Below the pieces are notes generated by a model. The model was not told the DNA's origin. It made no database searches and was given only the letters and a program-made list of their open reading frames with translations. Positions 565 through 63,421 of a stretch of DNA of 64,000 nt are shown piece by piece (within the stretch, counting starts at the first letter, position 1; each line of letters begins with the position of its first letter). The stretch is from Clostridiaceae bacterium. Its GTDB lineage: Bacteria; Bacillota; Clostridia; Saccharofermentanales; DTU023. The stretch lies in NCBI GenBank assembly GCA_012518795.1, contig JAAYRL010000050.1, forward strand, positions 1 through 64,000, given 5' to 3'. A program made the position numbers and the translations under genes.

Positions 565-1332
565 ATGAAAAAACGAAGTTTAATTGTAACTTTTTTATTA
601 GCTCTCAGTGTTTTGCTAGGAGCATGTAGCGGAAAAAAAGCTGATGAAGAAAAAGCAGCTGATGAAGAAAAAGCAGTTGATGAAGTACAAGAAGAAACCG
701 AAGAGGACGTTAAAGCAGAACCAAAAGTGGAAGTTGAAGAAGTTGAGGATCCGGACTTATCCGGTTGGGATGGCGACTGGTACAATATCACATCGTTCTA
801 CGGTAATGAAGAATTAGCTGAACCGTTGGCTAACGTAGCAGCTGAAAAAGAAATGACTACGGAAGATTTCATTGCCGAAGAAAAAGAGGAAACCGTTCCT
901 TTCCAACGCATGACAATCGATGCATCTGCCGGCACAATTGTATTTTATGAAGATGCTGATGGCGAACCGTCTGATGCTTATCCTTATGAATATCACAGTA
1001 CTGAAATGATTGAGCATGGTGGTGTTGCTCATCCTCTATATATCTTTGAAGGTAAAGAAAATGCGAACATACCCTATATTTTATTAATGGGTATTCATGG
1101 TGAAGACAAGTTTGCACACTTCCACGTTAGAACCGGTCAAACTCCTAAAGAACTTATTGAAAGAGATGACTGGTATCCAACCTTTGTAGGTCCAGAAGTA
1201 CCGATGACTATGATTGCTGAAGAGCTGGAACATCACCTTGAAGCACATGGCGATCACGACCATGACCACGACCACGACCATGATCACGACCATGACCACG
1301 ATCATGACCATGACCACGATCATGACGATTGA
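565..1332 (+). CDS. zinT: ZinT/YodA-like metal-binding lipoprotein with (His-Asp)n C-terminal tail
   Basis: Lipobox LLGACSG; ZinT-type core (LSGWDGDWYNITSFY...HFHVRTGQTPKELIERDDWYPTFVGP); C-terminal HDHDHD tail; directly upstream of znu genes. Confidence 0.85.
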   Translation: MKKRSLIVTFLLALSVLLGACSGKKADEEKAADEEKAVDEVQEETEEDVKAEPKVEVEEVEDPDLSGWDGDWYNITSFYGNEELAEPLANVAAEKEMTTEDFIAEEKEETVPFQRMTIDASAGTIVFYEDADGEPSDAYPYEYHSTEMIEHGGVAHPLYIFEGKENANIPYILLMGIHGEDKFAHFHVRTGQTPKELIERDDWYPTFVGPEVPMTMIAEELEHHLEAHGDHDHDHDHDHDHDHDHDHDHDHDHDD

Positions 1333-1422
1333 GAAGAAAAAACAACATTGAAACAAACAAATAACATTGAAACAAAAAATCATATTTCATTTTTTGTTTA
1401 AGTAATAGATGGAAATTAATTC

Positions 1423-2817
1423 ATGAAAAACAAAAAATTAATTCACAACATAAAGCGAAGAGCAAAAAGTAAATATGAAGTTAATAAGACCGGAGTAGGA
1501 GGCAAACTTACCTCCGGTCTTGCTCTATTTTTAATTTGTATTCTGCTGTTTTCTTCATTAACTTCTTGTAATGCGAACAAATCCGGCTCGGACGATCAAC
1601 CGTTAATTTATGCATCTTTCTTTCCTATTTTAGATTTAACCAAAACCGTTGCAGACGGTTCGGATATAGAAATAAAAGCTTTGTTACCTGTTAATCAGGA
1701 TCCGCATTTATGGGAACCGACTCCCCGTGACATTGAAAAACTTTCGTATGCCGATATGTTGATTGTCAACGGAGCTAATATGGAAGAAAGATGGTTGGCA
1801 TCTGTTCGAGACAGTTTACCTGACTTAAAGATTGTTGATCTTTCAGAAGGTGTTGATTTAATTACCTATAAAGGTGCGGCTGCTTTAGGTGAATTTCAAT
1901 TTTTAACGAAGATTGATTTAGAAGCCGGACACGTTTATCCGATTGAATTCGGTCATACTCATGAAGAATTTATGCGGATCGCTTTAATAAAAGAAACGCC
2001 GGAGTTGGCAGCATCCTCAGAAAAAGAAGTAATCGAGTTCTTTAAAGAAATCATGTTGGATGATGGAGAAATCATCGAACAAAGATCAATCATCGAGGTA
2101 GAGGACAAACAGGTATATAAAATGAAGATGGGTCATACTTCAGGTCTGGTTAGTTACCGGGTCCCTGAAGACGGAACCTATTATTTTGTATCAGATCGAT
2201 TAGCGGAGGCGTTACTTTCTTATCGTTTACTTGACGAGATAGATGGCAATGACTTGCCGCAAGAAGAGATTCTGGCAGGTTCGACATCAAGTTTAGATAA
2301 AATTACCTATGATCCTCATTCTTGGCTGTCTCTAAAAAATGCTATGCACTATCTCAATACAATCAGCAATGAACTATCTGCGGCTTATCCCGAGCATGCC
2401 GGTCTGTTCGATAGAAATAAAGTCGGTTTAGTATCTGAAATCAGACTGTTGGAACATACATATCGAGAAATTTTTGCTGAAAAAGAGAAAAAAGCATTTG
2501 TGGTCACCCACTATGCGTATGCCTATTTGGCGAGAGACTTCGGTTTGAAACAATATCCGTTGCAAAATTTAACCAGCATGGGTTCTCCCAGTTTAAATGC
2601 GTTGAGAAGAGCAGTGGCATTTTGTCGTGAGGATAACTTAAATACAATCTTCTATGAAAAAAGCGGTTATAAAATGGATGCTCAGACAATTGCTTGGGAA
2701 ATAGGAGGCGAAGCCGTTCCGCTAACATCTATGGAATACGTTAGCGAAAGATCCGGACTATCCTATTTAGATATTATGAGAGAAAATTTAGAGGAAATAG
2801 AAAGGTCACTACAGTGA
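1423..2817 (+). CDS. znuA: Zinc ABC transporter substrate-binding protein (ZnuA/TroA family) with internal insertion
   Basis: Lipobox LTSC; VNQDPHLWEPTPRDIEKLSYADMLIVNGANMEE and YDPHSWLSLKNAMHYL motifs; operon with an ATPase and permease. Confidence 0.9.
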   Translation: MKNKKLIHNIKRRAKSKYEVNKTGVGGKLTSGLALFLICILLFSSLTSCNANKSGSDDQPLIYASFFPILDLTKTVADGSDIEIKALLPVNQDPHLWEPTPRDIEKLSYADMLIVNGANMEERWLASVRDSLPDLKIVDLSEGVDLITYKGAAALGEFQFLTKIDLEAGHVYPIEFGHTHEEFMRIALIKETPELAASSEKEVIEFFKEIMLDDGEIIEQRSIIEVEDKQVYKMKMGHTSGLVSYRVPEDGTYYFVSDRLAEALLSYRLLDEIDGNDLPQEEILAGSTSSLDKITYDPHSWLSLKNAMHYLNTISNELSAAYPEHAGLFDRNKVGLVSEIRLLEHTYREIFAEKEKKAFVVTHYAYAYLARDFGLKQYPLQNLTSMGSPSLNALRRAVAFCREDNLNTIFYEKSGYKMDAQTIAWEIGGEAVPLTSMEYVSERSGLSYLDIMRENLEEIERSLQ

Positions 2818-3545
2818 GCAGCAAAAATACAAAAGATCAAAAAGATCATTTGAATAAAGGACAAAATGCAAATAATCCCGTGATTATGGTCAATAACCTG
2901 GCTTTTGCTTATGTTGAAGATCCTGTATTAACAGATATAAATTTCACATTGCATAGTCAAGAAAGTTTAGCCATTTATGGTGCTAACGGTTCCGGAAAAT
3001 CCACTTTGATGCGTTTATTGCTCGGTGAACTATCATCAGCAAAAGACACTATTTATATCTTCGGTCAAGATGTAACTGAAAAAAAGGATTGGCGCGATGT
3101 CGGTTATGTACCACAAATGAACGTTACGAAAAATGTCAGCTTTCCGGTAACTCCACTAGAGATGTTAGCTTCTTGCCAAATCAGAAAAATGGGTTTTATT
3201 AAAATGCCCGGGAAAAAGCATTATGAAGTAGCCAGAAAAACATTAAAGCGATTTAGTTTGCTCGATTACGGTAAGGTCCCCTTTACTGAATTGTCCGGTG
3301 GACTACAGCAAAGAACAATGATTGCCAGAGCCATGTTGGCAGAACCGAATTTGCTTATATTGGATGAACCTACTGCAGGTGTTGACGAACAAAACAAGAA
3401 AGACTTCTTACAATTATTGAATACCTTAAAAGATGAAGACGGTATTTCTTATGTTTTAGTTACCCATGAAAAAGATTTGGTAGAGCAAATGGTCAATATT
3501 GATCAGGCATATGAAATTAGAAACGGAGTGTTAGAAAATGTTTGA
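2814..3545 (+). CDS. znuC: Zinc ABC transporter ATP-binding protein
   Basis: Walker A GANGSGKST, signature LSGGLQQR, Walker B LLILDEPTAGVD. Confidence 0.9.
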   Translation: MSSKNTKDQKDHLNKGQNANNPVIMVNNLAFAYVEDPVLTDINFTLHSQESLAIYGANGSGKSTLMRLLLGELSSAKDTIYIFGQDVTEKKDWRDVGYVPQMNVTKNVSFPVTPLEMLASCQIRKMGFIKMPGKKHYEVARKTLKRFSLLDYGKVPFTELSGGLQQRTMIARAMLAEPNLLILDEPTAGVDEQNKKDFLQLLNTLKDEDGISYVLVTHEKDLVEQMVNIDQAYEIRNGVLENV

Positions 3546-4362
3546 ATTTGCTTTTATGCAACGAACTTTAATTGTCGGTTTGTTTCTCGGTATGAGTATA
3601 CCCCTGATCGGTATCATCATGGTTAATCGTAGAACTTCCATGATGGGTGACGCTCTTTCTCATACATCTCTCGCAGGTGTAGCCTTGGGTTTGATATTAG
3701 GTATTAATCCCAGTTTAGGCGCAGCGGCTATCTGTATCGTTTCCGCTTTTCTAATTGAAACATTGCGTGAACGTTTTCCGCAATACGGCGATATGGCTAC
3801 AGCCGTCATCATGAGTATCGGGCTTGGTGCTGCTTCCATTTTATCTGATTTTACGCCGGGCGGTAATTCTTTGGAATCGTATCTTTTCGGCAGTATTGCC
3901 GCCGCTTCACCGTCTGATGTTATCGTTTCCGCTGTATTGTTTCTTTTTGTTCTTATGGCAAGCATCTTCTTCTATAGCGGATTGCTCAACATTTCCATCG
4001 ATCCGAACTTAGCTCGCATTGACGGTGTCCATGTTAGAACAATCAATAGTATTTTTACCCTTTTAACAGCCATTACGGTTGCCCTAAGTGCTAAAACGGT
4101 CGGCATCTTATTAGTATCCTCATTACTGGTCATACCGGTAGCCTGTTCTCTATTTGTTGCCAGATCATATAAACAAATGTATATCATGTCTGTGGCATTA
4201 GGACTTGGCTTTATGATGATAGGACTGACGATGTCTTGGTATATGGAAATAAAACCTGGCGGTGCCATTATTCTGTTAGCCACAACCGGATTGATTATTT
4301 CCGCTCTCTATGCCAGATTCCGTAAAATAAAACATAAGAATAATCGTATGGCAGAAATCTAA
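3538..4362 (+). CDS. znuB: Zinc ABC transporter permease
   Basis: ABC-3 family permease (RRTSMMGDALSHTSLAGVALGLILG; multiple TMs); overlaps the ATPase gene. Confidence 0.9.
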   Translation: MFEFAFMQRTLIVGLFLGMSIPLIGIIMVNRRTSMMGDALSHTSLAGVALGLILGINPSLGAAAICIVSAFLIETLRERFPQYGDMATAVIMSIGLGAASILSDFTPGGNSLESYLFGSIAAASPSDVIVSAVLFLFVLMASIFFYSGLLNISIDPNLARIDGVHVRTINSIFTLLTAITVALSAKTVGILLVSSLLVIPVACSLFVARSYKQMYIMSVALGLGFMMIGLTMSWYMEIKPGGAIILLATTGLIISALYARFRKIKHKNNRMAEI

Positions 4363-9254: not shown

Positions 9255-9418
9255 CGGCTTTTTATGTGTGAAAGCAGTTTTGATAAAGATATAATTTTAT
9301 ATTTTAGGATATTTTTCCCTTCCAAAACTAGGCTCTAAGTAAAAAGCTGTTAAATAAAATGAGAGAAACGAATAACTAACAAATGCTTGATATTAAAGCG
9401 AAGAATGGAGCAAAAGAA

Positions 9419-10543
9419 ATGAAGAAAATCAGTTTATTAGTGTCAATATTAATGGCTTTTGTATTATTAATCAGTTCATGCGGAACAAAATCCAATGAAA
9501 CAACTGCTAAAGAATTAGAGGCAAAAGATCTTGAGATTGAAGAAGTAGAAAATAAAGATACAAAAAATGATAATAGTGAAACCGAAGATGTAGAGATGGA
9601 AACGGAAAATGCAGAAACCGAAGATGAAGAAACGGAAGCGGATAATGTAGAGACAGAAGATATTGAAACAGAGTCCGATAATAGAATTGAAGCTTATTCC
9701 GGCAGCGATAAGCCAACTATTACCGGAACGACAACTTTTGTTGCAGATATCGTAAAAGTTTTGGCGGAAGATTTTGTAAACATTGATATGATTATTCCTG
9801 CAGGTGACGATCCGCATCTATATGAACCGAAACCGCAAGATTTGCAAAAGATTACAGATGCTGATTTGGTTATTTATCACGGACTGCATTTCGAAGGCAA
9901 GATGGTAGATGTTCTGGAAAATTACGGACACGCTTTAGCAAAGGACTTCCCGGCGGATCGAGTTGGGGCAATGGATCAAGATGGTGATTTAATTATTGAT
10001 CCTCACTTTTGGTTTGATCTTGAATTGTATAAACTTGCTGTAAATAATACCGCAGATTATTTGAGTCAATTATTACCGGATGCAGCCGATACAATCGCCA
10101 AGAATACGGAAGAGTATAATGAGCAGTTAGTAGTATTATTTGAAGAATCTAAAGAAAAACTTGATTCGATCCCGGAAGATTCGCGTTATTTAATTACACC
10201 GCATGATGCATTCAATTACTTTTCACGTTCTTTCGATATTCCGGTTATGGCACCTCAAGGTATAAGTACCGATTCTGAAGTTGCAAACAAAGATATTCAA
10301 AACACCGTAGATTTCATTGTAGAGAAAGAAATTAAAGCAGTATTTGCAGAAACGACGACCGATCCGGCCCGTATGGAAAAGTTGAAAGAAGCAGCGGCGG
10401 CCCAAGGTTTTGATGTAAAAGTAGTGAGTGGTGAAGGTCAGGAATTGTTTTCCGACTCTTTGGCTCCGGAAGGTCAACCGGGCGATAATTTTATCGATAT
10501 GTTTACCCATAATGTGGATTTAATTGTAGAGAATTTAAAGTAA
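9419..10543 (+). CDS. Metal (Mn/Zn/Fe) ABC transporter substrate-binding lipoprotein, TroA/MntC family
   Basis: Start moved from 9383 to ATG 9419 (GGAG upstream; then MKKISLLVSILMAFVLLISSCG signal/lipobox). Acidic Glu/Thr-rich stalk, then DDPHLYEPKPQDLQKI and DPHFWFDLELY motifs. Confidence 0.9.
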   Translation: MKKISLLVSILMAFVLLISSCGTKSNETTAKELEAKDLEIEEVENKDTKNDNSETEDVEMETENAETEDEETEADNVETEDIETESDNRIEAYSGSDKPTITGTTTFVADIVKVLAEDFVNIDMIIPAGDDPHLYEPKPQDLQKITDADLVIYHGLHFEGKMVDVLENYGHALAKDFPADRVGAMDQDGDLIIDPHFWFDLELYKLAVNNTADYLSQLLPDAADTIAKNTEEYNEQLVVLFEESKEKLDSIPEDSRYLITPHDAFNYFSRSFDIPVMAPQGISTDSEVANKDIQNTVDFIVEKEIKAVFAETTTDPARMEKLKEAAAAQGFDVKVVSGEGQELFSDSLAPEGQPGDNFIDMFTHNVDLIVENLK

Positions 10544-10554
10544 AAGAGGGAAAT

Positions 10555-11292
10555 ATGTCAGAGAATATAATTGTCAAAGTTGAAGATTTGACGATGGCCT
10601 ATCACGATAAACCTGTCTTATGGGATAACGATGTCAATATTGTTGAGAATTCGAGGACGGCAATTATCGGTCCGAATGGGGCAGGCAAGTCGACCTTGCT
10701 GAAAGGCATTCTCGGTTTGCAAAAAACTTTGTCCGGAACTGTTGAAATCATGGGCAAAAGTGTTAAACAAGTCTATAAAAAAATTGCATATATCCCCCAG
10801 TCAAACAGTGTAAATTGGGATTTCCCGACAACAGCTTTGGATGTAGTTTTGATGGGACGCTATGTCCATCTTGGCTGGATCAAAAGACCTAAAAAGAAGG
10901 ATATAGAAATTGCAAGAAATGCGTTGCATAAAATGGGGATGCAGGATTATGCCAAACGTCAGATTTCGCAATTGTCCGGCGGTCAGAAACAAAGAGTTTT
11001 TATTGCCAGAGCGATTGCACAAAATGCAGAAATATATTTCATGGATGAACCGCTTGCCGGTGTCGATAAAAATACGGAAAAAGTTATTATCGACTTTTTG
11101 AAAGACTCACAAAAGCAAGGCAAAACATCGATAGTCATCCATCATGATTTGAATACTTTAGCTGATTATTTTGATCATTTGGTAATTCTCAATAAGAGAA
11201 TCATAGCCCAGGGCAAAATGTCTGAAACATTAACCCAAGCAAATCTTGATGCTGCTGATATGGGCGGAGGATTTACAATTGCTGCTATGTAA
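10555..11292 (+). CDS. Metal ABC transporter ATP-binding protein
   Basis: GPNGAGKST, LSGGQKQR, YFMDEPLAGVD. Confidence 0.92.
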   Translation: MSENIIVKVEDLTMAYHDKPVLWDNDVNIVENSRTAIIGPNGAGKSTLLKGILGLQKTLSGTVEIMGKSVKQVYKKIAYIPQSNSVNWDFPTTALDVVLMGRYVHLGWIKRPKKKDIEIARNALHKMGMQDYAKRQISQLSGGQKQRVFIARAIAQNAEIYFMDEPLAGVDKNTEKVIIDFLKDSQKQGKTSIVIHHDLNTLADYFDHLVILNKRIIAQGKMSETLTQANLDAADMGGGFTIAAM

Positions 11293-11357
11293 ATATGCAA
11301 ATAGATTTATGAGAGAACATAGAGGAAGGTATTGCCGGGGCGGAGGTTTTAAAATAA

Positions 11358-12329
11358 ATGCTTAGTGTTTATCTAAATAAAATATTCAGTTTAAATTTTG
11401 CCAATCTGCTCAATGCAATCGGCTTAGATTTTGAAATATTAAGTAGTTATACCTTTATTGTAGTTTGTCTGGGTACGATGATTTTAGCTACAGTTGCGGG
11501 AATGGTCGGTACAATCACGGTTTTAAAAGGACAATCTTTGATTGGAGATGCGATTGGCCATTCATCATATCCGGGAATTATTATAGCGTTTATGATCGGC
11601 ATGAGTTTGGATTCGGTTTCCTTAATGATCGGGGCAATTATTTCGGGAACTCTGGCTTTTATTATCATTCAGTTTATTGATAAAAATTCAAAATTAAACC
11701 TGGATGCAGTTTTAGCTGTAATTCTGTCGGCTTTTTTCGGTCTCGGCATGGTCTTAAAAAGCTTTATCCAAGGACATCCTATTTATGGTAAAGTGCCACA
11801 AGGCGGTTTGAGCAACTATATTTTTGGTCAAGCCGCTTTTATCAGAACAATTGATGTTCAATTAATCCTGGCTGTTGCGATACCGTCACTACTAATCCTT
11901 TTTCTGTTTTACAAAGAATTTAAAATATTTGTTTTTGATGAAGTTTATGCAAAATCGATCGGTCTAAGTTCAACACTGATGTATGTTTTGCTGGTGTTAA
12001 TTACAATGAGTGTTATTGCTACCGGGCTGAAATTAGTCGGTGCAATTCTAATTTCTTCATTCTTGATTGTACCGGGGATTACGGCTTTACAGTGGAGCAA
12101 TCGTTTCAGTCATGTTCTGATTATTGCGGCGATTGTCGGCAGTTTTTCGGCTTTTGTCGGTACCTATATTTCAAGTGTTTATGCCGGAATGTCGACCGGA
12201 CCTTGTATAATTGTGGTGATGTCCGGTTTAGCTTTTATTTCAATGTTTATTTCACCCAAAGGCTTACTCGCTAATTGGCTGCGAAGGAGAAAATATTTAA
12301 ATGATTTATCAAAATCTCTTATTGACTAA
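11358..12329 (+). CDS. Metal ABC transporter permease (first)
   Basis: ABC-3 permease: VLKGQSLIGDAIGHSSYPGI; multi-TM. Confidence 0.9.
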   Translation: MLSVYLNKIFSLNFANLLNAIGLDFEILSSYTFIVVCLGTMILATVAGMVGTITVLKGQSLIGDAIGHSSYPGIIIAFMIGMSLDSVSLMIGAIISGTLAFIIIQFIDKNSKLNLDAVLAVILSAFFGLGMVLKSFIQGHPIYGKVPQGGLSNYIFGQAAFIRTIDVQLILAVAIPSLLILFLFYKEFKIFVFDEVYAKSIGLSSTLMYVLLVLITMSVIATGLKLVGAILISSFLIVPGITALQWSNRFSHVLIIAAIVGSFSAFVGTYISSVYAGMSTGPCIIVVMSGLAFISMFISPKGLLANWLRRRKYLNDLSKSLID

Positions 12330-13727: not shown

Positions 13728-14969
13728 ATGAAAATTCAAAGGCCACATTACCAAACTAAATTAATCAACAAACGCGAAAATGGATTAATCAAAGTTATTA
13801 CAGGAATTCGCAGGTCGGGCAAGTCGTATTTGCTGGATCCGCTTTTTAAAGACTATTTACTGGCTGAAGGTGTCCCTGAAGATCACATTATAAAAATTGA
13901 GTTTGACCGAATAGAAAATTTAAAATTCCATAACGATGTGGAAAAATTAAATGAGTATATTCGCTCGCAAATTAAAGATAAGGGAATGCATTATCTTCTA
14001 TTAGATGAGATTCAGCTTGTAGAGCAATTTGAATTTTTGCTTACCGGTCTTTTATATGAAAAAAATATCGATATATATGTGACGGGCAGTAATTCTAAAT
14101 TTTTGTCTTCCGATATCATTACAGAGTTCCGAGGTCGAGCTGATCAAGTTAGGGTTTTTCCTTTAAGCTTTTCCGAATTCATGTCTGTTTTTCAAGGTGA
14201 TAAGCTTGCCGGATGGAGCGAATACATTACGTTTGGCGGGATGCCGTTAATACACTTTATAAAAACGGACGAAGAGAAGTCTGCCTACCTGAAAGACTTA
14301 TTTCAGCATACATATTTTAAAGATATTGTTGAACGGTATAAGATCCAACGTGTTGATATTTTAGATTCTCTAGTCAGTATTTTAGCGTCATCAATTGGTT
14401 CACTTACTAATCCGAAAAAAATTCATGATACATTTAAGAGCGAAGGAGAAAATGAATTATCGATCAATACGATTCACTCTTATTTATCCTATCTTGAAGA
14501 AGCATTTATTGTAGATAAAGCTAATCGCTATGACGTGAAGGGAAGGCGCTATATCAAGACGCCGTATAAGTATTATTTTACAGATGTTGGACTGCGTAAT
14601 GCATGCCTTAATTTTCGCCAACAAGAAGAATCCCATATTATGGAAAACATCATTTATAACGAATTGATGATTCGTGGTTATAATGTGGATGTTGGCTTGG
14701 TGGAAATCCGAGAAAATGGTAAACGCAAACAAACAGAAGTTGATTTTGTGTGTAACCAAGGCAATAAGCGTTATTATATACAATCTTCTCTTCATTTAGA
14801 TTCGCGAGAAAAAACCTGGCAAGAGACGCGCTCGTTAAATCATATTGATGACAATTTTAAGAAAATAATTATTGTAAAAGATGTTGCCAAACATTGGAGA
14901 ACGGAAACAGGTATTTTAGTCTTGAGTCTTTTTGATTTTCTTGAAAAGTGGGATAGTATAGATTTATAA
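13728..14969 (+). CDS. AAA_14/DUF4143-type ATPase
   Basis: VITGIRRSGKSYLL Walker A; YLLLDEIQ; VTGSNSKFLSSDIITEFRGR; C-terminal DUF4143-like region. Paralogous to 62168-63421. Confidence 0.88.
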   Translation: MKIQRPHYQTKLINKRENGLIKVITGIRRSGKSYLLDPLFKDYLLAEGVPEDHIIKIEFDRIENLKFHNDVEKLNEYIRSQIKDKGMHYLLLDEIQLVEQFEFLLTGLLYEKNIDIYVTGSNSKFLSSDIITEFRGRADQVRVFPLSFSEFMSVFQGDKLAGWSEYITFGGMPLIHFIKTDEEKSAYLKDLFQHTYFKDIVERYKIQRVDILDSLVSILASSIGSLTNPKKIHDTFKSEGENELSINTIHSYLSYLEEAFIVDKANRYDVKGRRYIKTPYKYYFTDVGLRNACLNFRQQEESHIMENIIYNELMIRGYNVDVGLVEIRENGKRKQTEVDFVCNQGNKRYYIQSSLHLDSREKTWQETRSLNHIDDNFKKIIIVKDVAKHWRTETGILVLSLFDFLEKWDSIDL

Positions 14970-52871: not shown

Positions 52872-54056
52872 TTATTCTAAGATGTTGTCTTTCTTTCCAA
52901 TACCGAGGAAACTTTGCCAAGAAAACTTTTCATTTTGGACTTTAAAATTGTATTCGATTCTCTCAACTTCATAATTTGCTTTGAATGCTTCTCCGAAAGC
53001 CAGATCATCATAGATAGCATATTTTCTGAAAAAATTCTCGAGACTGATGTTATTTTGTAAGAGATAAACAATAACATTATTCATAAAACGCCTACTGTCA
53101 GGCATACTTATTTCAGAAATTAATTTAACTTCCGGCCAATTAAAATGCGGATAAGGTAAAATGCTGATTGCTTCTTGAGTGTTCACTATAGGATCAGATC
53201 TTTTATATTGAACAGGTAATCTTTGTTCAGACAGTATTTTACACAATTCAGCAATAGTTTTAGCCAGCCGATTATCAGGATAAACAAATTGCCAAGTTAA
53301 CCAACCATGGAAATAGAGAGTTTTATTGGCTCGCAACAAGATTAGTGTTTTGAGTTTATCCCTGGTTGAAGGTTTTCTTGTAGTAGCCAACACAGGAAAA
53401 AGCAATGACAATTCTTTATGATTCAGACTGAAAGCTAAATCATGTAATTTATCTTCACTATTTGCTTTACGAAGTTGGGCAATAAGCCAATTACGGTGGG
53501 TCTGATTGATTTTCATTTGTCTTTCACGCGGTAAGACATGAAATTCTTTGGCTTTGTCAGTTAATTGACTTAAATTCAAATTGCTTAATCTTTCATAAGT
53601 GGTTTTTGAAATATTAACTTTTGCCGGACGTCTTAAATTTAAATTCCTTGTAGAATGTTGTTGAATTCTTCTGACATTTAAAGTAAATCCCGATTGTTGA
53701 TCTGAATTTTTGTTGTCTAATGCTGATTTTTCTATAATTGGTCCGGCTTCCTCCGATTTAGTCGATACTTCTGAATTAACTGTATCAATTAATTGATTGA
53801 TTTTAACCGGTCGAATTGATTTTTGGATTTCAACCGATTCCGTAGAAGCGACAGCACCTACAAGGTCAACAGAATCAACTGTATCAATAGAGTCAACAGA
53901 ATCAACTGTATCAATAGAGTTGACAGAATCAGCGGAATCGACAGAACTAACAGAGTCTACCGGATTTACAGATTCAACAGATTTTGCAGATTCTGTTGAG
54001 TCAACGAAATCTTTTTGATTAAAGTCTTCAGGTAAAGCTATCTTTCTAATTGACAT
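52872..54056 (-). CDS. Uncharacterised protein with N-terminal VDS/ST-rich repeats and helical C-terminal domain
   Basis: SVDSVDSIDTVDSVDSIDTVDSVD repeat; C-terminal region TRDKLKTLILLRANKTLYFHGWLTWQFVYPDNRLAKTIAEL; 1 bp from the upstream gene. Confidence 0.7.
   Translation of the reverse strand: MSIRKIALPEDFNQKDFVDSTESAKSVESVNPVDSVSSVDSADSVNSIDTVDSVDSIDTVDSVDLVGAVASTESVEIQKSIRPVKINQLIDTVNSEVSTKSEEAGPIIEKSALDNKNSDQQSGFTLNVRRIQQHSTRNLNLRRPAKVNISKTTYERLSNLNLSQLTDKAKEFHVLPRERQMKINQTHRNWLIAQLRKANSEDKLHDLAFSLNHKELSLLFPVLATTRKPSTRDKLKTLILLRANKTLYFHGWLTWQFVYPDNRLAKTIAELCKILSEQRLPVQYKRSDPIVNTQEAISILPYPHFNWPEVKLISEISMPDSRRFMNNVIVYLLQNNISLENFFRKYAIYDDLAFGEAFKANYEVERIEYNFKVQNEKFSWQSFLGIGKKDNILE
53866..53930. 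repeat. 27-bp in-frame coding repeat
   Basis: TCAACAGAATCAACTGTATCAATAGAG repeated in tandem; encodes the VDS/IDT repeats on the minus strand. Confidence 0.9.
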
Positions 54057-54057
54057 A

Positions 54058-55596
54058 CTACTTATCTTTTCTTAAATCAGTACTCAGAGCAAAAGGCAAA
54101 GCTTCGACCGCATCTCTGATTTCGGCTGTGGTGTAAATTAGTCGTTCTACAATATCTGCCAAAGCCGATTCAAATTCAGTTAAAGTTTTTCCGATTTTTT
54201 GATTAGATTTTTCTTTGAATTCAATAGTTGAATTATTAATTGAAGTATTAATCTTATCTAAATCCTGGATGACAGAATTCATCTTATCGATTAATTGTTC
54301 AAATTGATTTGCCTGTTCACTGCGCAATTTATCACTCATATAAATTGTTGCTTGTGATTGTTCGATACTATTGTTAATTGTTGATAAAGAGTTATTCAGA
54401 GCTGTTTCCAAGCTGCCGATTTGTTCTTTAAGGCTGGCATCTTCACCTGCATAAACCGAAGTCATCCTTTCGGTTACACTTGAGATTACTTCGAGATTAT
54501 CTGCCAGTTTAGCCATATCGTTGGCGATATCATTTTTAGCAACAGTCATCAGTTCAATTGATTCCGAGACTTCGCGGTTTAAAAGGATATTTTGTTGACG
54601 AGAATTTTCCATAACTGCAATTGAATCCTGGATGAAGTTTTTCGTATCATCCATCATCGAATTAAACGAATTGAGTTCATCTTGGATAGACTGAAAATTA
54701 TTTTTCATTGCAATGGTTAATTCATCAGAAAAATTTTGAGCTAATTGTTTCATTCCGTCATTTTGTTTATTACTCAAAGATTCAGCTAAATTGGACAACG
54801 TTTCACTAGATTTATTAATTGGTGGTGCAATCTCATTTTGCATCACTTCTTTAATAGTAGTGCTCAGATTATTATTAAAATCTTCCGAAACAAAATCTTC
54901 CAAATTAGAATTGAATTTATCCATAGCCTGGCTGATTGAATTTTCATGTTCGGTCATTTCATTTACTAACAAAGCGAGACCTGATTTGTCAGTATAAACA
55001 GGAACATACCGCTCAGTTTTTCTAATTAAACGATCAATGATTTGTGCAGAACTTTCTAACAGAATTTTACGCTGATTCAGTAAAAAGAGACTAACCAAGA
55101 GACTGACGATAAATGGAACTAACATCATAAAACGACTGATCTGAAATTGTTCAGGATTGATTTCCGGAGCGATAGCCAAGACCAGACTAGCTATAATTCC
55201 ACATGTCAAAACAAGAATACTTAAAGTATATTGGAAACAAGTTTTTAATTGAGGTTCGGCTAAATTATCTAAATTAAATTCGCTATCCAGATTCGGTAGC
55301 CATTTTCCGTCATATTTTTCTTTGCTGTCCTCAATTAGATTATGTACACTCTCTTTAAGCAGTTCGGAATCAGATTCATCGGCATATATTTCTAATTCTA
55401 CAGTATGGCTGATTTGGCAACCGTGTAATAAATCCAGTTTTTCCATGAAATTTTCAATAGAATACTTCAAGTTATTTCGTTGCTTATTGCTTATAATGAT
55501 ATAAATTATCCCTATTAAAACTAATACTATAGGTACTCCTGCGAAGAAAACCAATTCAAAATAGGATAAAGAGATATTGCTGATTAAGGTATGCAT
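54058..55596 (-). CDS. Three-TM membrane protein with long coiled-coil tail
   Basis: TM at N-terminus (ELVFFAGVPIVLVLIGIIYIII), TM pair (YTLSILVLTCGIIASLVLAI; FMMLVPFIVSLLVSLFLL), then about 330 aa of helical, coiled-coil-like sequence. Confidence 0.75.
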   Translation of the reverse strand: MHTLISNISLSYFELVFFAGVPIVLVLIGIIYIIISNKQRNNLKYSIENFMEKLDLLHGCQISHTVELEIYADESDSELLKESVHNLIEDSKEKYDGKWLPNLDSEFNLDNLAEPQLKTCFQYTLSILVLTCGIIASLVLAIAPEINPEQFQISRFMMLVPFIVSLLVSLFLLNQRKILLESSAQIIDRLIRKTERYVPVYTDKSGLALLVNEMTEHENSISQAMDKFNSNLEDFVSEDFNNNLSTTIKEVMQNEIAPPINKSSETLSNLAESLSNKQNDGMKQLAQNFSDELTIAMKNNFQSIQDELNSFNSMMDDTKNFIQDSIAVMENSRQQNILLNREVSESIELMTVAKNDIANDMAKLADNLEVISSVTERMTSVYAGEDASLKEQIGSLETALNNSLSTINNSIEQSQATIYMSDKLRSEQANQFEQLIDKMNSVIQDLDKINTSINNSTIEFKEKSNQKIGKTLTEFESALADIVERLIYTTAEIRDAVEALPFALSTDLRKDK

Positions 55597-55724: not shown

Positions 55725-57383
55725 ATGGCAACAAAATATATTTTTGTAACCGGAGGCGTTGTTTCAGGTCTTGGTAAAGGGATTACCGCCGGAGCATTAG
55801 GAGCTTTGTTAAAAGCACGTGGCTTAAGTGTTGTAACTCAAAAATTTGATCCGTATATCAATGTAGATCCCGCCTTGATGAGTCCAACTCAACATGGAGA
55901 AAAATTTATTACTGAAGACGGTGCTGAAACCGATCTGGACATTGGACACTATGAAAGGTTCACCGATGTCAATTTGACAGCAGAATCAGATATAACTTCA
56001 GGTCAGATTTATCAAGCAGTAATCAAACGTGAGCGTGAAGGTGGATATAACGGTGGTACGGTTCAAGTTGTTCCTCATATTATTAATGAGATCAAAGATC
56101 ATATGTTCCGTATTTCCCGCAATGAACCGACAGATGTTGTAATTGCGGAAATAGGAGGCACAGTCGGAGATATGGAGGGTACACCGTATATTGAAGCAAT
56201 TCGCCAAGTCAGTTATCAAGTCGGTCGTGAGAATTGTCTTTTTATGCATGTAACGCTTTTGCCATATCTGAATAATCCGGGAGAAATTAAGACGAAACCG
56301 ACTCAACATAGTGTGCTTAAATTGTTATCTTATGGCGTTCAACCTGATATTCTGGTTTGCAGAACCGAAGTGCCCTTAGACGAATCGATTAAGCGCAAGA
56401 TTGCTCTATATTGTAATGTTAAATACGAGAATGTAATTGAAAATCTTGATGTATCTACAGTATATGAATTACCTTTATACTTTGAAAAACAAGGTTTGGC
56501 AAATGCAGTCTGCAAGCAACTGGGCATTGCCCAGTTTGTTGAACCGGATTTATCTTTATGGAAGCGTTTAAATGAACAAATCAGATACACTACTCGTAAA
56601 TTAAAGATTGCTTTAGTCGGAAAATATGTTTCTTTACAGGATGCATATTATTCAGCTTTGGAAGCAATAGATCATGCTTCAATTGAAAATGGAGTTGCGC
56701 CGGAAATTGTATGGGTAGACAGTGATCCTCTGGAAGAAGTGTCCGAAGAGGAATTAAACGATATTTTTGCTGATGTTGATGCAATGATTATTCCTGGTGG
56801 GTTTGGTCCGCGTGGTATGGAGGGAATGATCAGATCTGCTGAATATGCTCGAGTAAACAAGTTACCGTTTTTGGGAATTGGTCTGGGCATGCAAATGGGC
56901 GTAGTAGAAATTGCACGAAATTTAGCAAATATAAAAGATGCTCATACGGATGAGTTTGAAAAACCCTGCTCGGATATTTTTTATTATGCAGGCTTAAGTG
57001 ATACACAGGCAGCAATATTGTCAGAAATTCCCTTACCCGATCAACCGATGCGAGTAGGGGCATATCCGATGAAAATCAAAGAAAACACAAAACTGCATCA
57101 GATTTATCGAAGTACGGAAGCTTCTGAACGACATCATCATCGCAGAGAATTTAATCTGGTATGGCAAGGTCCTTTATTGCAAACCGGTTTAGTGTTTAGT
57201 GGAACATCACCTGATGGAAAATGGATTGAAGCAGTAGAATTACCTGATCATCCTTTTTATATCGGTATAATTTCACATCCCGAATTTAAATCGCGTCCGA
57301 TCAAACCACATCCGTTATACAATGCATTTATCGAAGCAGCTTTAAAGTATAAAAAATCAAAACCGAAAGTCCAAACCGAATAA
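55725..57383 (+). CDS. pyrG: CTP synthase with substituted glutaminase nucleophile
   Basis: [55 protein letters not shown]; glutaminase motif reads GIGLGMQ. Confidence 0.97.
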
Positions 57384-57400: not shown

Positions 57401-58906
57401 ATGGCATTTATTTATGAAGAATTATCCCGCACATTTAGTGAATATCTTTTAGTACCTAATTTAACGAAAAAAACATGTGTGCCCGCGAATGTTTCCTTAA
57501 AAACACCTTTAATCAAATATCGTAAAGGTGAAGAAGAAAGCCCAATTAGTTTAAATATCCCATATACTTCGGCGATTATGCAATCCGTGTCCAATGACAG
57601 AATGGCTATTGCTCTGGCTCGAGAGGGTGGATTGTCATTTATCTTCGGCTCACAACCAATTAAGAAACAAGCGGAGATGATCCGCAATGTTAAAAAATTT
57701 AAAGCCGGTTTTGTTCCGAGTGACAGCAATTTACCACCGGAAGCAACTTTGACCGACGTGATTAAGTTAAAAGAAAAAACCGGTCATTCTACGGTACCTA
57801 TTACGTCGGATGGGAGCTCGACGGGAAAGCTCTTGGGGATTATTACCAGCAGAGATTATCGTGTTTCGAGAATCCAAGGCGATGAGAAAGTCAAAGATTT
57901 CATGACTCCGATTGAACAGATGATTTATGCGAAGGAAGGTATTACTTTAAGTGAAGCGAATGACATAATCTGGGACCATAAATTAAATCAATTACCGATT
58001 GTTGATAAAAACGGCAGATTAACCAGTCTCGTATTTCGTAAAGACTATGATGAACATAAACAAAATCCATATGAAATGCTTGATTCCGGCAAGCGTCTTA
58101 TGGTAGGTGCCGGAATCAATACTCGTGACTATGAAGAAAGAATCCCGGCTTTGGTCAAGTCAGGTGTAGATGTACTCTGCATTGATTCATCTGACGGATT
58201 TTCCGAATGGCAATCAGATACGCTTAAATGGGTGAGAGACAAGTACGGTGAGGATGTATATATCGGTGCCGGCAATGTAATTGATGCTCAAGGTTTTCGT
58301 TATTTAGCTGATGCCGGAGCTGATTTCATCAAAGTCGGTATTGGCGGCGGATCAATTTGTATTACACGTGAACAAAAGGGAATCGGACGCGGACAAGCTT
58401 CAGCCGTTATTGCTGTAGCGGAAGCTAGAGATGAATATTTCAAAGAAACCGGAACTTACATACCTATTTGTTCAGACGGCGGTATTGTGCATGATTATCA
58501 TATGGCTTTAGCCTTGGCAATGGGTGCAGACTTCTTGATGTTAGGACGTTACTTCGCCAGATTTGATGAAAGTCCTACGCGTCGACTAATGGTAAATGGT
58601 AGTTATGTTAAAGAATACTGGGGTGAAGGTTCGAATCGGGCACGCAATTGGCAAAGATATGATGACGGTGAACATGAAGGCAAGATGGTTTTCGAAGAAG
58701 GCGTTGATTCTTATGTGCCTTATGCCGGAAAACTTAAAGATAATATAGAAAATTCCGTAGCTAAAATGAAATCTACTATGTGCTCATGCGGTTCGCTTAC
58801 TCTGGATGAATTTAAAGAAAATGCCCGTCTGGTTGTGGTTTCTCCAACTAGTATTGTTGAAGGCGGGGCTCATGACGTTATTCGCAAAGAAAGTGATCGC
58901 TCCTGA
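57401..58906 (+). CDS. guaB: IMP dehydrogenase with CBS domains
   Basis: [35 protein letters not shown] segments; [31 protein letters not shown]. Confidence 0.95.
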
Positions 58907-59054
58907 TAAATGAATGAATCCTGATAAATAAATGAAAATAATTTAAATAAAACTTGCAGTATTATGCTTTTTCTTATATAAAGAATAGCTAAAACAGTTG
59001 ATTATATATTGCGATTGTGCAAAAACAATTAACCATGAAAAGAGGAATTACAGA

Positions 59055-59534
59055 GTGTCACAAAAAGTTTATGAAATGACCTATGAAGGAATTAAAGAAC
59101 TACAAGATGAACTTGAATATCGTAAAACCGAACTTTCAATAGAGATTGCTGAAAGATTGAAAGAAGCTCGTGCTTTAGGTGATCTTTCCGAAAATTCAGA
59201 ATATGATGATGCTAAAGATGCTCAAGCCAAAAATGAAGTAAGAATTGCAGATATTGAGGCAATCTTGAAAAATGCCAAGGTGATAGAAGATGCTGAAATC
59301 TCGAGTGATAAAGTAACTTTGGGGTCAAAAGTAAAACTCTTAGATGTTGAATATGACGAAGAATTGATATATACCATTGTCGGTTCACTTGAAGAAGACA
59401 TTTTTAAAAACAAAATTTCGAATGAATCTCCGGTAGGAAGTGCAATCATGGGACATAGAGCCGGTGATACCGTTAAAGTTATATCTTTAGCCGGTGAACT
59501 GGAGTATAAAATTTTAGAAATACATAAAAAATAA
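59055..59534 (+). CDS. greA: Transcription elongation factor GreA
   Basis: Start moved to GTG 59055 (AGAGGA upstream). YEGIKELQDELEYRKTELSIEIAERLKEARALGDLSENSEYDDAKDAQ. Confidence 0.95.
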   Translation: MSQKVYEMTYEGIKELQDELEYRKTELSIEIAERLKEARALGDLSENSEYDDAKDAQAKNEVRIADIEAILKNAKVIEDAEISSDKVTLGSKVKLLDVEYDEELIYTIVGSLEEDIFKNKISNESPVGSAIMGHRAGDTVKVISLAGELEYKILEIHKK

Positions 59535-59768: not shown

Positions 59769-61799
59769 ATGAATAACGACGCCAATAATTCTCAACAAAA
59801 ACAAAATCCTGCCGATACAAAACCTGATGTTCAGGAACAAGTTTTGAACAGATTACATAAATTAGAAGAATTAGAACAAGCAGGTCAAAATCCTTTTTGG
59901 ATAACGACCGCTGAACAAACTGAACATAGTAAAGAAATAATAGAGAACTATGCTGAGTTTGAAGGGAAAAATGTTTCTGTTGCCGGAAGAATTATGGCAA
60001 AACGCGGTATGGGAAAAGTCAGTTTTGTCGATTTGCAAGATCGTCAAGGCAATATTCAGATTTTTACTAAATTTGATGCACTTGCTGACGAGGATTATAA
60101 AGCATGGCAAAATCTTGATATTGGCGACTTAATCAGTGTTAAAGGAGAAGTTTTTACTACACAAAAGGGTGAAATTTCTATTCGTAATCAAGGCTACCAA
60201 TTGCTTGCCAAGTGTTTACGTCCTTTACCGGAAAAATTCCATGGTTTGACAGATACGGATACCAGATACCGCAAGCGTTATCTGGATTTAATTGTTAATC
60301 CTGAAATCAAAGAAGTTTTTGAAAAACGCAGCAAAATTATAACTACACTCAGACATGAATTGGAAGAACTTGATTTTATTGAAGTAGAAACACCGCTTTT
60401 AAATCTGATTGCCGGTGGTGCAGCTGCCAGACCATTTGTAACTCATCATAATACATTGGACTTGAGTTTATTTTTACGAATATCCCCTGAATTATATCTG
60501 AAACGCTTAATTGTAGGCGGTTTTGAAAAAGTTTATGAAATAGGTAGAAATTTCAGAAATGAAGGCATGTCGACCAAGCACAATCCGGAATTTACGATGA
60601 TCGAACTTTATCAGGCATATACTGACTATAACGGTATGATGGAAATTTCCGAACATCTGATCAGTACAGCCTGTATGGCGGTCAACGGAACTTTGCAAAT
60701 TAAATTTGGTGAATATGAACTTGATTTAACACCGCCGTTTGCCAGAATGACAATGTTGGAAGCCATAGAAAAATACACCGGAATTGATTTTACTAAAATT
60801 GAAGATGATAAAACTGCTCAAAAAATTGCTGAGGAAAAAGGAATTGCGGAACTGGCTGCCGGTAAAACCAGAGGTGAAATTATCAATATATTCTTTGAAG
60901 AATTTTGTGAAGAACATTTGATCCAGCCTACTTTTATCTATGACTATCCAATTGAAATATCACCTTTAACTAAAAAGAAAAAATCCGATCCGCGTATGAC
61001 AGAGCGTTTTGAAATATTTATCTGCGGTGCGGAATACGGTAATGCCTATTCCGAGCTGAATGATCCGAGAGATCAACATGAGCGTTTTATAGAACAACAA
61101 AAGCAACGAGAAGCCGGTGATGAAGAAGCCAATATTCCGGATCTGGATTTTGTTGAAGCATTGGAATACGGTTTACCTCCGACCGGAGGACTGGGTATCG
61201 GTATTGATCGCTTAGTCATGCTCTTAACTGACTCTGCCTCAATTCGTGACGTATTACTCTTCCCGACAATGCGCCCGTTAGGCAATCAGATAATAGAAAA
61301 TGAAGTTATTAATCAAGAAAGTGCCAAACCATTTGATTCGATTACGACTAATTTAGACAAAACCGATTTAGAACAAACTGATTTAGAAAAAAACGACTTA
61401 GAAAAAATTGATTTCGGTAAATTAGATTTTTCCAAAATAAAGATTGAACCGTTATTTGAAGACATGGTTGATTTCGAAACATTCTCCAAATCCGATTTTA
61501 GAGTAGTAAAAGTGCTAAATTGTGAAGAAGTTCCAAAATCTAAAAAACTATTAAAATTCACCTTGGATGACGGGTCAGGTAATGATAGAACCATACTCTC
61601 AGGAATCAAAGACTATTATAAGGCTGAAGACTTGATCGGAAAAACTTTAATAGCAATTACGAATTTACCGGAAAGAAAGATGATGGGCCTGCCATCACAA
61701 GGAATGATCATCTCAGCAGTATATGAATATGATGGAGAAGAAGGATTAGATCTTCTAATCTTAGATGACGATATACCTGCCGGCGCAAAATTATATTAA
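59769..61799 (+). CDS. lysS: Lysyl-tRNA synthetase (class II) with C-terminal Trbp111/EMAP-II-like tRNA-binding domain
   Basis: Motif 2 EIGRNFRNEGMSTKHNPEFTMIE; motif 3 GGLGIGIDRLVMLLTDSASIRDVLLFPTMRP; then repeat linker DLEQTDLEKNDLEKIDF and DFETFSKSDFRVVKVLNCEEVPKSKKLLKFTL...RKMMGLPSQGMIISA. Confidence 0.95.
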   Translation: MNNDANNSQQKQNPADTKPDVQEQVLNRLHKLEELEQAGQNPFWITTAEQTEHSKEIIENYAEFEGKNVSVAGRIMAKRGMGKVSFVDLQDRQGNIQIFTKFDALADEDYKAWQNLDIGDLISVKGEVFTTQKGEISIRNQGYQLLAKCLRPLPEKFHGLTDTDTRYRKRYLDLIVNPEIKEVFEKRSKIITTLRHELEELDFIEVETPLLNLIAGGAAARPFVTHHNTLDLSLFLRISPELYLKRLIVGGFEKVYEIGRNFRNEGMSTKHNPEFTMIELYQAYTDYNGMMEISEHLISTACMAVNGTLQIKFGEYELDLTPPFARMTMLEAIEKYTGIDFTKIEDDKTAQKIAEEKGIAELAAGKTRGEIINIFFEEFCEEHLIQPTFIYDYPIEISPLTKKKKSDPRMTERFEIFICGAEYGNAYSELNDPRDQHERFIEQQKQREAGDEEANIPDLDFVEALEYGLPPTGGLGIGIDRLVMLLTDSASIRDVLLFPTMRPLGNQIIENEVINQESAKPFDSITTNLDKTDLEQTDLEKNDLEKIDFGKLDFSKIKIEPLFEDMVDFETFSKSDFRVVKVLNCEEVPKSKKLLKFTLDDGSGNDRTILSGIKDYYKAEDLIGKTLIAITNLPERKMMGLPSQGMIISAVYEYDGEEGLDLLILDDDIPAGAKLY

Positions 61800-61936: not shown

Positions 61937-62167
61937 TTTTATTCAGTCTCTGAACAAAGTTTTTTAATGTTTTCTAGCAAACACATGCATATAAGATTTA
62001 TTATTATGCATAGAATTTCAGAGACAGTCTTTATTTTACCTCGTGAATAAGTTATAATATTGAAAATTAGCTGAATAAATGCACTTGTTTTTCAGCAGAG
62101 ATAGTTTTAATAAAGAGAATTTAACAAAGCAAATTTCAGCAAAGTGATTTCAGTGAAGAGAATTAAT

Positions 62168-63421
62168 ATGGAAATAAAACGTGATTTATATTTACAGCAA
62201 TTAATTGATCGTATGCATAACGGAATGATTAAAGTCATAACCGGTGTTAGGCGAAGCGGAAAGTCATATCTTGTTTTTAAGATTTTTAAAGAATATTTAC
62301 TCGGCAATGGCATTGATCATAAACACATTATTTCGCTTGAATTGGACAGAATTGAAAATAAAAAGTATCGTAATCCGGATGTAATTTATGAATATATTAA
62401 CAGTCAACTGATTGACAACCGAAAATATTATATTTTGCTTGATGAAGTACAAATGTTGAACGATTTTGAAGAAGTTTTAAATTCGTTACTATATAAAAGC
62501 AATGTGGATGTTTATGTGACCGGCAGCAATTCGAAGTTTTTATCAAAAGATGTCATTACTGAATTTCGCGGCAGGGGGGATGAGATACACATCTATCCAC
62601 TTAGCTTTCAGGAATTTATGAGTAAATATGATGGCGATATGTATCACGGTTGGGCTGATTATGTAACTTATGGCGGTTTACCGCTCATATTATCGATGAA
62701 AAACGAAGAGCAAAAAATTAATTATCTAAATTCTCTTTTCACAGAAACATATATTAAAGATATAGTTGAAAGAAATCATATAGAAAAAGTTCAGGAATTG
62801 AATGATCTGATCAATATTTTGGCTTCCGGCATTGGTTCTCTTAGCAATCCTTCAAAAATTTTATCAACATTCAAGAGCCGGCTTAAATCTGATATCAGTT
62901 TAAATACTATTAGAGCATATATTGAATATCTTCAGGATGCTTTTTTGATTAATGAGGCTTATCGATATGATGTTAAAGGCAGGAAATATATCGGTACACC
63001 ACTTAAATATTATTTTGAAGATGTAGGTTTAAGGAATGCTCGATTAGGCTTTAGGCAAGTTGAAGAAAATCACGTTATGGAGAATATTATTTATAATGAA
63101 CTTCGATTTAGAGGGTATCAAGTAGACGTGGGTATGGTTGCCAAACGCTTTATCGATAAAGAAGGCAAACAAAGATCAAAACAATTAGAAATTGATTTCA
63201 TTGCAAATCTTGGCAGCAAAAGATATTATCTTCAATCAGCTTTTAGCATGCCTACAGAACAAAAAATCAATCAAGAAAAAGCACCCCTGATTAATGTAAG
63301 TGATTCTTTCAAAAAGATAATTATTGTAAAAGATGTAATCAATGTCCGCAGAGATGAATATGGAATAACTACAATGAGTATCTTTGATTTTTTATTAAAT
63401 GAAAATAGTTTAGAATTATAA
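62168..63421 (+). CDS. AAA_14/DUF4143-type ATPase (second copy)
   Basis: Start at 62168. VITGVRRSGKSYLVFKIFKEYLLGNG; VTGSNSKFLSKDVITEFRGRGDEIHIYPLSFQEFM; closely similar to 13728-14969. Confidence 0.88.
   Translation: MEIKRDLYLQQLIDRMHNGMIKVITGVRRSGKSYLVFKIFKEYLLGNGIDHKHIISLELDRIENKKYRNPDVIYEYINSQLIDNRKYYILLDEVQMLNDFEEVLNSLLYKSNVDVYVTGSNSKFLSKDVITEFRGRGDEIHIYPLSFQEFMSKYDGDMYHGWADYVTYGGLPLILSMKNEEQKINYLNSLFTETYIKDIVERNHIEKVQELNDLINILASGIGSLSNPSKILSTFKSRLKSDISLNTIRAYIEYLQDAFLINEAYRYDVKGRKYIGTPLKYYFEDVGLRNARLGFRQVEENHVMENIIYNELRFRGYQVDVGMVAKRFIDKEGKQRSKQLEIDFIANLGSKRYYLQSAFSMPTEQKINQEKAPLINVSDSFKKIIIVKDVINVRRDEYGITTMSIFDFLLNENSLEL

Follow-up and report, generated by a model that had tools for sequence, protein, structure and literature searches.

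What does a CTP synthase do when its glutaminase domain carries a glycine where the catalytic cysteine is expected? The question is raised by the pyrG gene in a 64,000-nucleotide stretch of DNA from a Clostridiaceae bacterium (the window). CTP and GMP synthases in cells are treated by textbooks as glutamine-dependent. Judged from sequence, we consider with a probability of roughly 85% that this PyrG is an ammonia-specific CTP synthase, and one part of a shift across the whole lineage in which ammonia took over from glutamine in nucleotide amination. The bacteria of this group, uncultured Clostridia of the digester type, would then in all likelihood make their nucleotides straight from free ammonia, with glutamine replaced.

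A CTP synthase without the glutaminase nucleophile

The pyrG gene (55725–57383, + strand) encodes a protein of 552 amino acids, which matches the profiles CTP_synth_N (396 bits) and GATase (88 bits) as well as NCBIfam PRK05380.1/TIGR00337, far exceeding the cut-off for the CTP synthase equivalog. The synthase domain (residues 4–267; 55734–56525, +) was delimited by the profile match, and residue alignment showed its catalytic residues to be intact. The class-I glutamine amidotransferase (GATase) domain (residues 304–537; 56634–57335, +) is folded according to the profile match and the AlphaFold2 model and has no nucleophile. The sequence was read again and aligned: codon 386 (56880–56882, +) is GGT, a glycine at the place of the catalytic cysteine (E. 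coli C379), and the motifs are GIGLGMQ at the nucleophile elbow and GPRGMEGMI, all of them as the original prediction had described. With Gly 386 the Cys nucleophile of class-I (triad) amidotransferases is missing. The His and Glu of the triad (H518 and E520) are kept, the HPE motif lying at 57276–57284 (+); in other species this motif reads NPQ, EPQ or HPQ. By its synthase domain and fold the protein belongs to the CTP synthase family; because the nucleophile fails, its sequence places it outside the glutamine-hydrolysing CTP synthases.

Further replacements were found at positions with a role in GTP activation or coupling, where T51, D107, L109, R429, T438 and R468 of E. coli correspond to L51, G107, N109, L432, P441 and H471. 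The numbering was transferred via a gammaproteobacterial PyrG of E. coli length, and residues 356, 379, 468, 470, 515 and 517 agree with the literature. In the alignment, codon 51 (55875–55877, +) specifies Leu instead of the invariant Thr51 of the GTP site, codon 60 (55902–55904, +) Lys instead of Val60, a residue of the ammonia gate (role from PMC9138612), and codon 471 (57135–57137, +) His instead of R468, which contacts the GTP purine; the segment at 56037–56051 (+) was likewise located by alignment and its role taken from PMC9138612. A search for a second pyrG, proposed along with the original prediction, gave none: the PF06418 (CTP_synth_N) profile has a single match in the assembly (1.87 Mb, 94% complete), which is the PyrG of the window.

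Distribution and single origin of the Gly type

Glycine occupies the nucleophile position in 34 of the 34 pyrG-bearing genomes of the window's family (38 genomes in 7 genera); in the other four no CTP_synth_N match was found. A second PyrG with the cysteine (Cys-type, about 50% identical) is present in only three family genomes (G009, G010 and G016), and in the remaining 31, the window genome among them, no CTP synthase other than the Gly-type enzyme was found, a provisional count as these are incomplete metagenome-assembled genomes (MAGs). Within the order (188 genomes), the Gly motif was found in this family and in 12 genomes of one sister family (G170–G175, G177, G178, G180, G181, G183 and G185), most of which have a second PyrG too. 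In a search of approximately 85,000 species genomes, the best 80 of 398 candidates included no Gly type from outside the order, and none was found in viral contigs. In public databases the Gly type occurs in MAGs filed under Clostridiaceae, Clostridiales, Eubacteriales or Mageeibacillus sp.; many of these are part of the 'AS' isolate series, which we take to be anaerobic-digester assemblies, and a few come from other sources.

Three further motif matches were rejected. A match to Gly-motif DNA in G021 proved to be a sequence other than pyrG, and GFGLGMQ matches in G032 (no PF06418 match) and G093 (PF06418 match on another contig) are most likely due to chance. In G178 (L176, 2088–3925) the Gly-type pyrG appears as two overlapping reading frames, reflecting a frameshift, an assembly error or a pseudogene; a Cys-type copy is also present. 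The genomes without a CTP_synth_N match are G012, G015, G018 and G021 in the family and G027, G030, G032 and G038 elsewhere in the order; they are up to 99% complete and two consist of a single contig.

All Gly-type sequences form one clade with 100/100 support in a maximum-likelihood tree from which the diagnostic residue was masked. The stem of the clade measures about 0.4 changes per site. Cys-type copies from G170, G171 and G181 stand closest to the clade, and relatives outside it keep the cysteine. The possibility that all relatives have Cys, which would have spoken against the original prediction, is thereby set aside: glycine is fixed in the clade, that is, in the whole set of pyrG-bearing family genomes and in the 12 of the sister family. 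The glycine is spelled GGT, GGC, GGA or GGG in independent assemblies. Errors of sequencing or assembly, and likewise a mutation that arose recently in a single genome, are refuted by the 46 genomes, their independent assemblies, the four glycine codons and the linked fixed changes, and the probability of such an explanation is negligible. The same facts qualify the single T-to-G change that had been offered as explanation; it formally describes the codon, but the real history is an ancient substitution with a long stem branch, linked fixed changes and the use of all four Gly codons.

Residues lost and residues kept

The residues of 43 Gly-type and 39 Cys-type PyrG sequences were compared. The ATP/UTP and Mg residues K18, K40, D42, D72, E140, K187, K189, Q192 and K223 (E. 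coli numbers) are invariant in both types. Every synthase residue checked is invariant in 43/43 Gly-type sequences, in line with the earlier statement that the synthetase domain looks intact. These residues also bear on the proposal that the Gly-type protein has left CTP synthesis, to act as a regulator or to aminate another substrate, with CTP obtained by salvage. The long stem branch would fit such a change, as would the several genomes of family and order that lack any pyrG and in which CTP salvage must therefore be possible. However, the invariant ATP/UTP site, a dN/dS of about 0.02 in the synthase domain, the score far above the equivalog cut-off and the standing of the protein as sole CTP synthase found in 31 genomes make a role outside CTP synthesis unlikely.

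The losses lie elsewhere. C379 is Gly in 43/43 Gly-type sequences and Cys in 39/39 Cys-type sequences, and R468 is His in 43/43 and Arg in 39/39, respectively. T51 is replaced by Leu, Met, Ile or Phe in 43/43 and T438 by Pro in 40/43 of the Gly type. R105, D107 and L109 of the L4 loop are lost in nearly all Gly-type enzymes and the wing residue R429 is altered, although positions 105, 107, 109 and 429 are also variable among the Cys-type enzymes of the order. Retained are E68, M52, R470, R356 and, mostly, R440, and the gate residues P54 and H57 are invariant. V60 sits where the ammonia tunnel is narrowest; this residue is Lys only within the window's genus and Ile or Val elsewhere. In E. coli, T51, R468, R470, E68 and the wing belong to the GTP site (reviewed in PMC9138612); the substitutions D107A and L109A leave glutaminase and NH3-dependent activity in place and impair glutamine-dependent CTP formation, and G352P abolishes glutamine-dependent activity with nearly full activity on NH4Cl (PMC9138612). 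Measured against these roles, the natural changes in the Gly type therefore concentrate on functions that serve glutamine use. Overall, the losses hit residues for glutamine use, GTP activation or coupling, and the synthase residues checked are spared.

The pocket might be thought to retain some glutaminase chemistry by means of a different nucleophile, given that the triad His and Glu are kept in most species, including that of the window. No Cys or Ser substitutes for the nucleophile, however, and the elbow residue is Gly in 43/43; H518 has become Asn or Glu in 7/33 family sequences and E520 has become Gln in 11/33, and the triad is therefore drifting. We regard such chemistry as very improbable.

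Constraint and fold of the GATase domain

In Gly-type PyrG, dN/dS was 0.014–0.05 for the synthase domain and 0.03–0.13 for the GATase domain; as the values are low in both domains, Gly-type pyrG is a working gene. At matched divergence, the ratio of GATase to synthase divergence was 1.7–1.9 in the Gly type versus 1.3–1.7 in the Cys type. Strong relaxation of the GATase domain, which had been expected, was rejected on the basis of this only mildly higher ratio. The AlphaFold2 model of the window PyrG has a mean pLDDT of 84, with low confidence (<50) at residues 46–67 and 110–116, the gate included. Foldseek aligned the model over its full length with the CTP synthases of E. coli, T. thermophilus and M. 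tuberculosis (TM 0.85–0.87).

The original prediction saw in the GATase domain a structural or GTP-binding allosteric module. The structural part of this claim agrees with a constrained domain and a full-length fold match; the GTP part is weakened by the altered T51, R468, T438 and R429, with E68, M52, R470, R356 and mostly R440 staying in place. The alterations at T51, R468 and T438 argue against ordinary GTP activation. From sequence and model the dead domain appears to be kept as a folded part, and it may serve as scaffold, as tetramer or regulatory surface, or as ammonia vestibule. The domain is still well constrained and has held on to the oxyanion region, to E403 and R470 and often to HPE. 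This is more than a useless relic needs and counts against the ammonia-only reading.

Gene neighbourhood

Downstream of pyrG lie guaB (IMP dehydrogenase; 57401–58906, +), a conserved partner of Gly-type pyrG that provides XMP for GuaA, greA (58998–59534, +) and lysS (59769–61799, +), the last two in conserved synteny. The order pyrG-guaB-greA-lysS is common to the Gly-type loci examined in both families; Cys-type pyrG, as judged from coordinates, adjoins guaA instead in G170, G171, G172, G174, G031 and G062.

A glutaminase acting in trans could hand ammonia to PyrG (and GuaA) via the old tunnel, in the manner of two-subunit amidotransferases, and both the purifying selection on the GATase domain and the invariant gate residues P54 and H57 are in keeping with this. 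Against it, the window genome, the only one searched with PF00117, holds no such protein other than PyrG and GuaA; the conserved neighbours guaB, greA and lysS include no glutaminase; and the coupling residues of the L4 loop are lost, with V60 being Lys in the window's genus. A partner in trans is thus improbable, slightly more so than a role outside CTP synthesis, and we retain the use of free ammonia as the preferred explanation.

Several other features of the window were recorded. Upstream of pyrG, several genera keep a divergently transcribed pair of genes (52872–54056 and 54058–55596, both on the − strand). Of the two products, the larger bears a weak resemblance to ZorA (21.8 bits versus a cut-off of 190), and the other has an N-terminal repeat of the SVDSVDSV type and no family match. 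Two AAA_14/DUF4143 ATPases of one kind are encoded at 13728–14969 and 62144–63421, and a third protein, similar to them in appearance, at L197:9889–11157. Two zinc-type ABC uptake clusters (565–4362, ZinT/ZnuA/ABC-3; 9383–12329, ZnuA/ABC-3) flank feoB.

A second dead glutaminase in GMP synthase

The GMP synthase of the same genome (GuaA; genome G000, contig C17, L197:8150–9514, outside the window) has a shrunken GATase domain without the His/Glu part. This domain scores 62 bits against TIGR00888 (cut-off 172) and covers positions 1–92 of 188. The missing stretch comprises about 80 residues, the His/Glu segment among them, so the protein lacks the complete Cys/His/Glu set of class-I GATases; the ATPPase and dimerisation domains are intact. 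AlphaFold2 and Foldseek group the short protein with GMP synthases. GMP synthetases are able to use external ammonia (PMC10526850).

Short GuaA, the form present in most of the family, was found in 19/19 family genomes whose PyrG is exclusively of the Gly type and whose GuaA N-terminus could be read, and full GuaA in all 3 family genomes with an additional Cys-type PyrG. Among the family genomes without PyrG, G012 and G018 have a full GuaA and G015 a short one. Several genomes of the sister family contain both a full and a short GuaA, just as Cys-type and Gly-type PyrG occur together there. The losses in the two enzymes are associated imperfectly, as G176, G029 and G037 combine short GuaA with Cys-type PyrG. 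Two distinct groups of short GuaA were observed, the second lineage occurring in other genera and sister families; an independent double loss is not claimed, as the unrooted tree is compatible with a single loss. G012 (L212) has a second GuaA which is of full size and catalytically dead, without GICYG and FHPE, and which may represent an intermediate stage of decay.

Taken together, the clade-wide fixation, the intact synthase site and the parallel loss of the GuaA glutaminase strongly support, at the level of sequence, that PyrG would function with ammonia only, as originally proposed.

Glutamine economy and niche

The window genome was inventoried by targeted family searches, in which the class-II GATase model gave no match. 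No class-II GATase was found in 23/38 family genomes, among them every genome of genera g1 and g3, and no glutamine synthetase in 26/38, among them every genome of g3; single absences in MAGs are weak evidence, and the pattern of absences is consistent across genera. A large homologue of glutamine synthetase persists in the window's genus and counts against the ammonia-only reading. An ammonia-rich niche had been proposed from the opp and amino-acid importers near pyrG; the importer genes are present, but they are circumstantial and say little. The absence of other glutamine enzymes and the many relatives that appear to be digester MAGs give a better hint of the niche.

It is probable, though less so than the ammonia-specific function of PyrG, that this family of free-living Clostridia largely gave up glutamine as a biosynthetic nitrogen donor: the glutaminases of CTP and GMP synthase were lost, many members lack class-II glutaminases and many lack glutamine synthetase, and free ammonia would enter nucleotides directly, all by way of an ancestor with both enzyme sets.

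Proposed mechanism and evolution

From the sequences, distribution, phylogeny, constraint and synteny described above, we infer the catalytic behaviour, the NH3 route and the physiological ammonia supply as follows. The synthase domain would phosphorylate UTP with ATP, and free NH3 from the solvent would attack C4 of 4-phospho-UTP. NH3 would perhaps come in by way of the GTP cleft and vestibule, where exogenous NH3 has been proposed to enter in E. coli (PMC9138612). A glutamyl-thioester could not form in the glutaminase domain because the Cys is Gly; the domain would survive for its structural role and would probably also form part of the route by which NH3 enters.

Gly-type PyrG would have a single origin, for which duplication of an ordinary Cys-type PyrG is the most likely route. 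The ancestor may have carried a glutamine set and an ammonia set, with Gly-type and Cys-type pyrG side by side, and the Cys copy would have been lost in most of the window's family; an ancestor with both sets and later loss of the glutamine set would explain the mixed genomes. GMP synthase appears to have lost its glutaminase in the same genomes as PyrG, which suggests that the amination of both CTP and GMP moved from glutamine to ammonia. A high-ammonia habitat would render glutamine hydrolysis needless. It is predicted that PyrG and GuaA do not respond to glutamine analogues (DON or acivicin, for example) and that growth depends on ammonium, which bears on digesters.

Comparison with known systems

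A survey recorded a fused glutaminase in 100% of genomes for both enzymes, 800 for PyrG and 730 for GuaA, with none lacking it (PMC3376133). No natural ammonia-only CTP synthase was found in the open-access literature searched. The Gly-type enzyme is unusual in its clade-wide fixation and its pairing with the same loss in GuaA. The NCBIfam models name both the window PyrG and the short GuaA as glutamine-hydrolysing despite the dead glutaminase, a systematic mis-annotation.

With the glutamine-hydrolysing PyrG (TIGR00337) of E. coli and T. thermophilus the window enzyme shares the two-domain architecture, fold and synthase site, and it is about 44–46% identical to the solved bacterial enzymes; it differs in having Gly for Cys and changes at T51, D107, L109, R468, T438 and the wing residues. 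The E. coli CtpS mutants G352P, D107A and L109A likewise lose glutamine use or coupling and keep ammonia-dependent CTP synthesis (PMC9138612), but these are artificial single substitutions, whereas the Gly type is natural, fixed and multi-site. The lineage offers a natural test of the roles that the GATase domain, the GTP site and the ammonia tunnel have after the loss of glutamine hydrolysis, and of the steps by which an enzyme comes to work well on ammonia.

Type N NadE, the single-domain, ammonia-dependent NAD synthetase that Gly-type PyrG would resemble in nitrogen source, performs an essential amidation on ammonia without a glutaminase in many bacteria (PMC3376133); NadE has no glutaminase domain and an ammonia-utilising ancestor has been proposed for it, whereas in PyrG the domain is present but dead. 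The short GuaA resembles the two-subunit archaeal GMP synthetase, the ATPPase module of which aminates XMP with external ammonia in vitro (PMC10526850); archaea, however, have a separate active glutaminase subunit, whereas the short GuaA has a GATase remnant and no separate subunit was found for it.

Vertebrate carbamoyl-phosphate synthetase I (CPS1) also retains an inactive class-I glutaminase domain with a replaced catalytic Cys (Ser in human CPS1; PMC4655335) and uses free ammonia, as is predicted for PyrG. CPS1 differs in its unrelated acceptor enzyme, its place in animal mitochondria and the urea cycle and its N-acetylglutamate switch, PyrG serving bacterial CTP synthesis. In its sequence, Gly-type PyrG shows the CPS1-like combination of a retained inactive glutaminase domain, an intact synthetase and fixation in a clade, and a natural lineage in which both glutaminases are lost would be a bacterial parallel to vertebrate CPS1.
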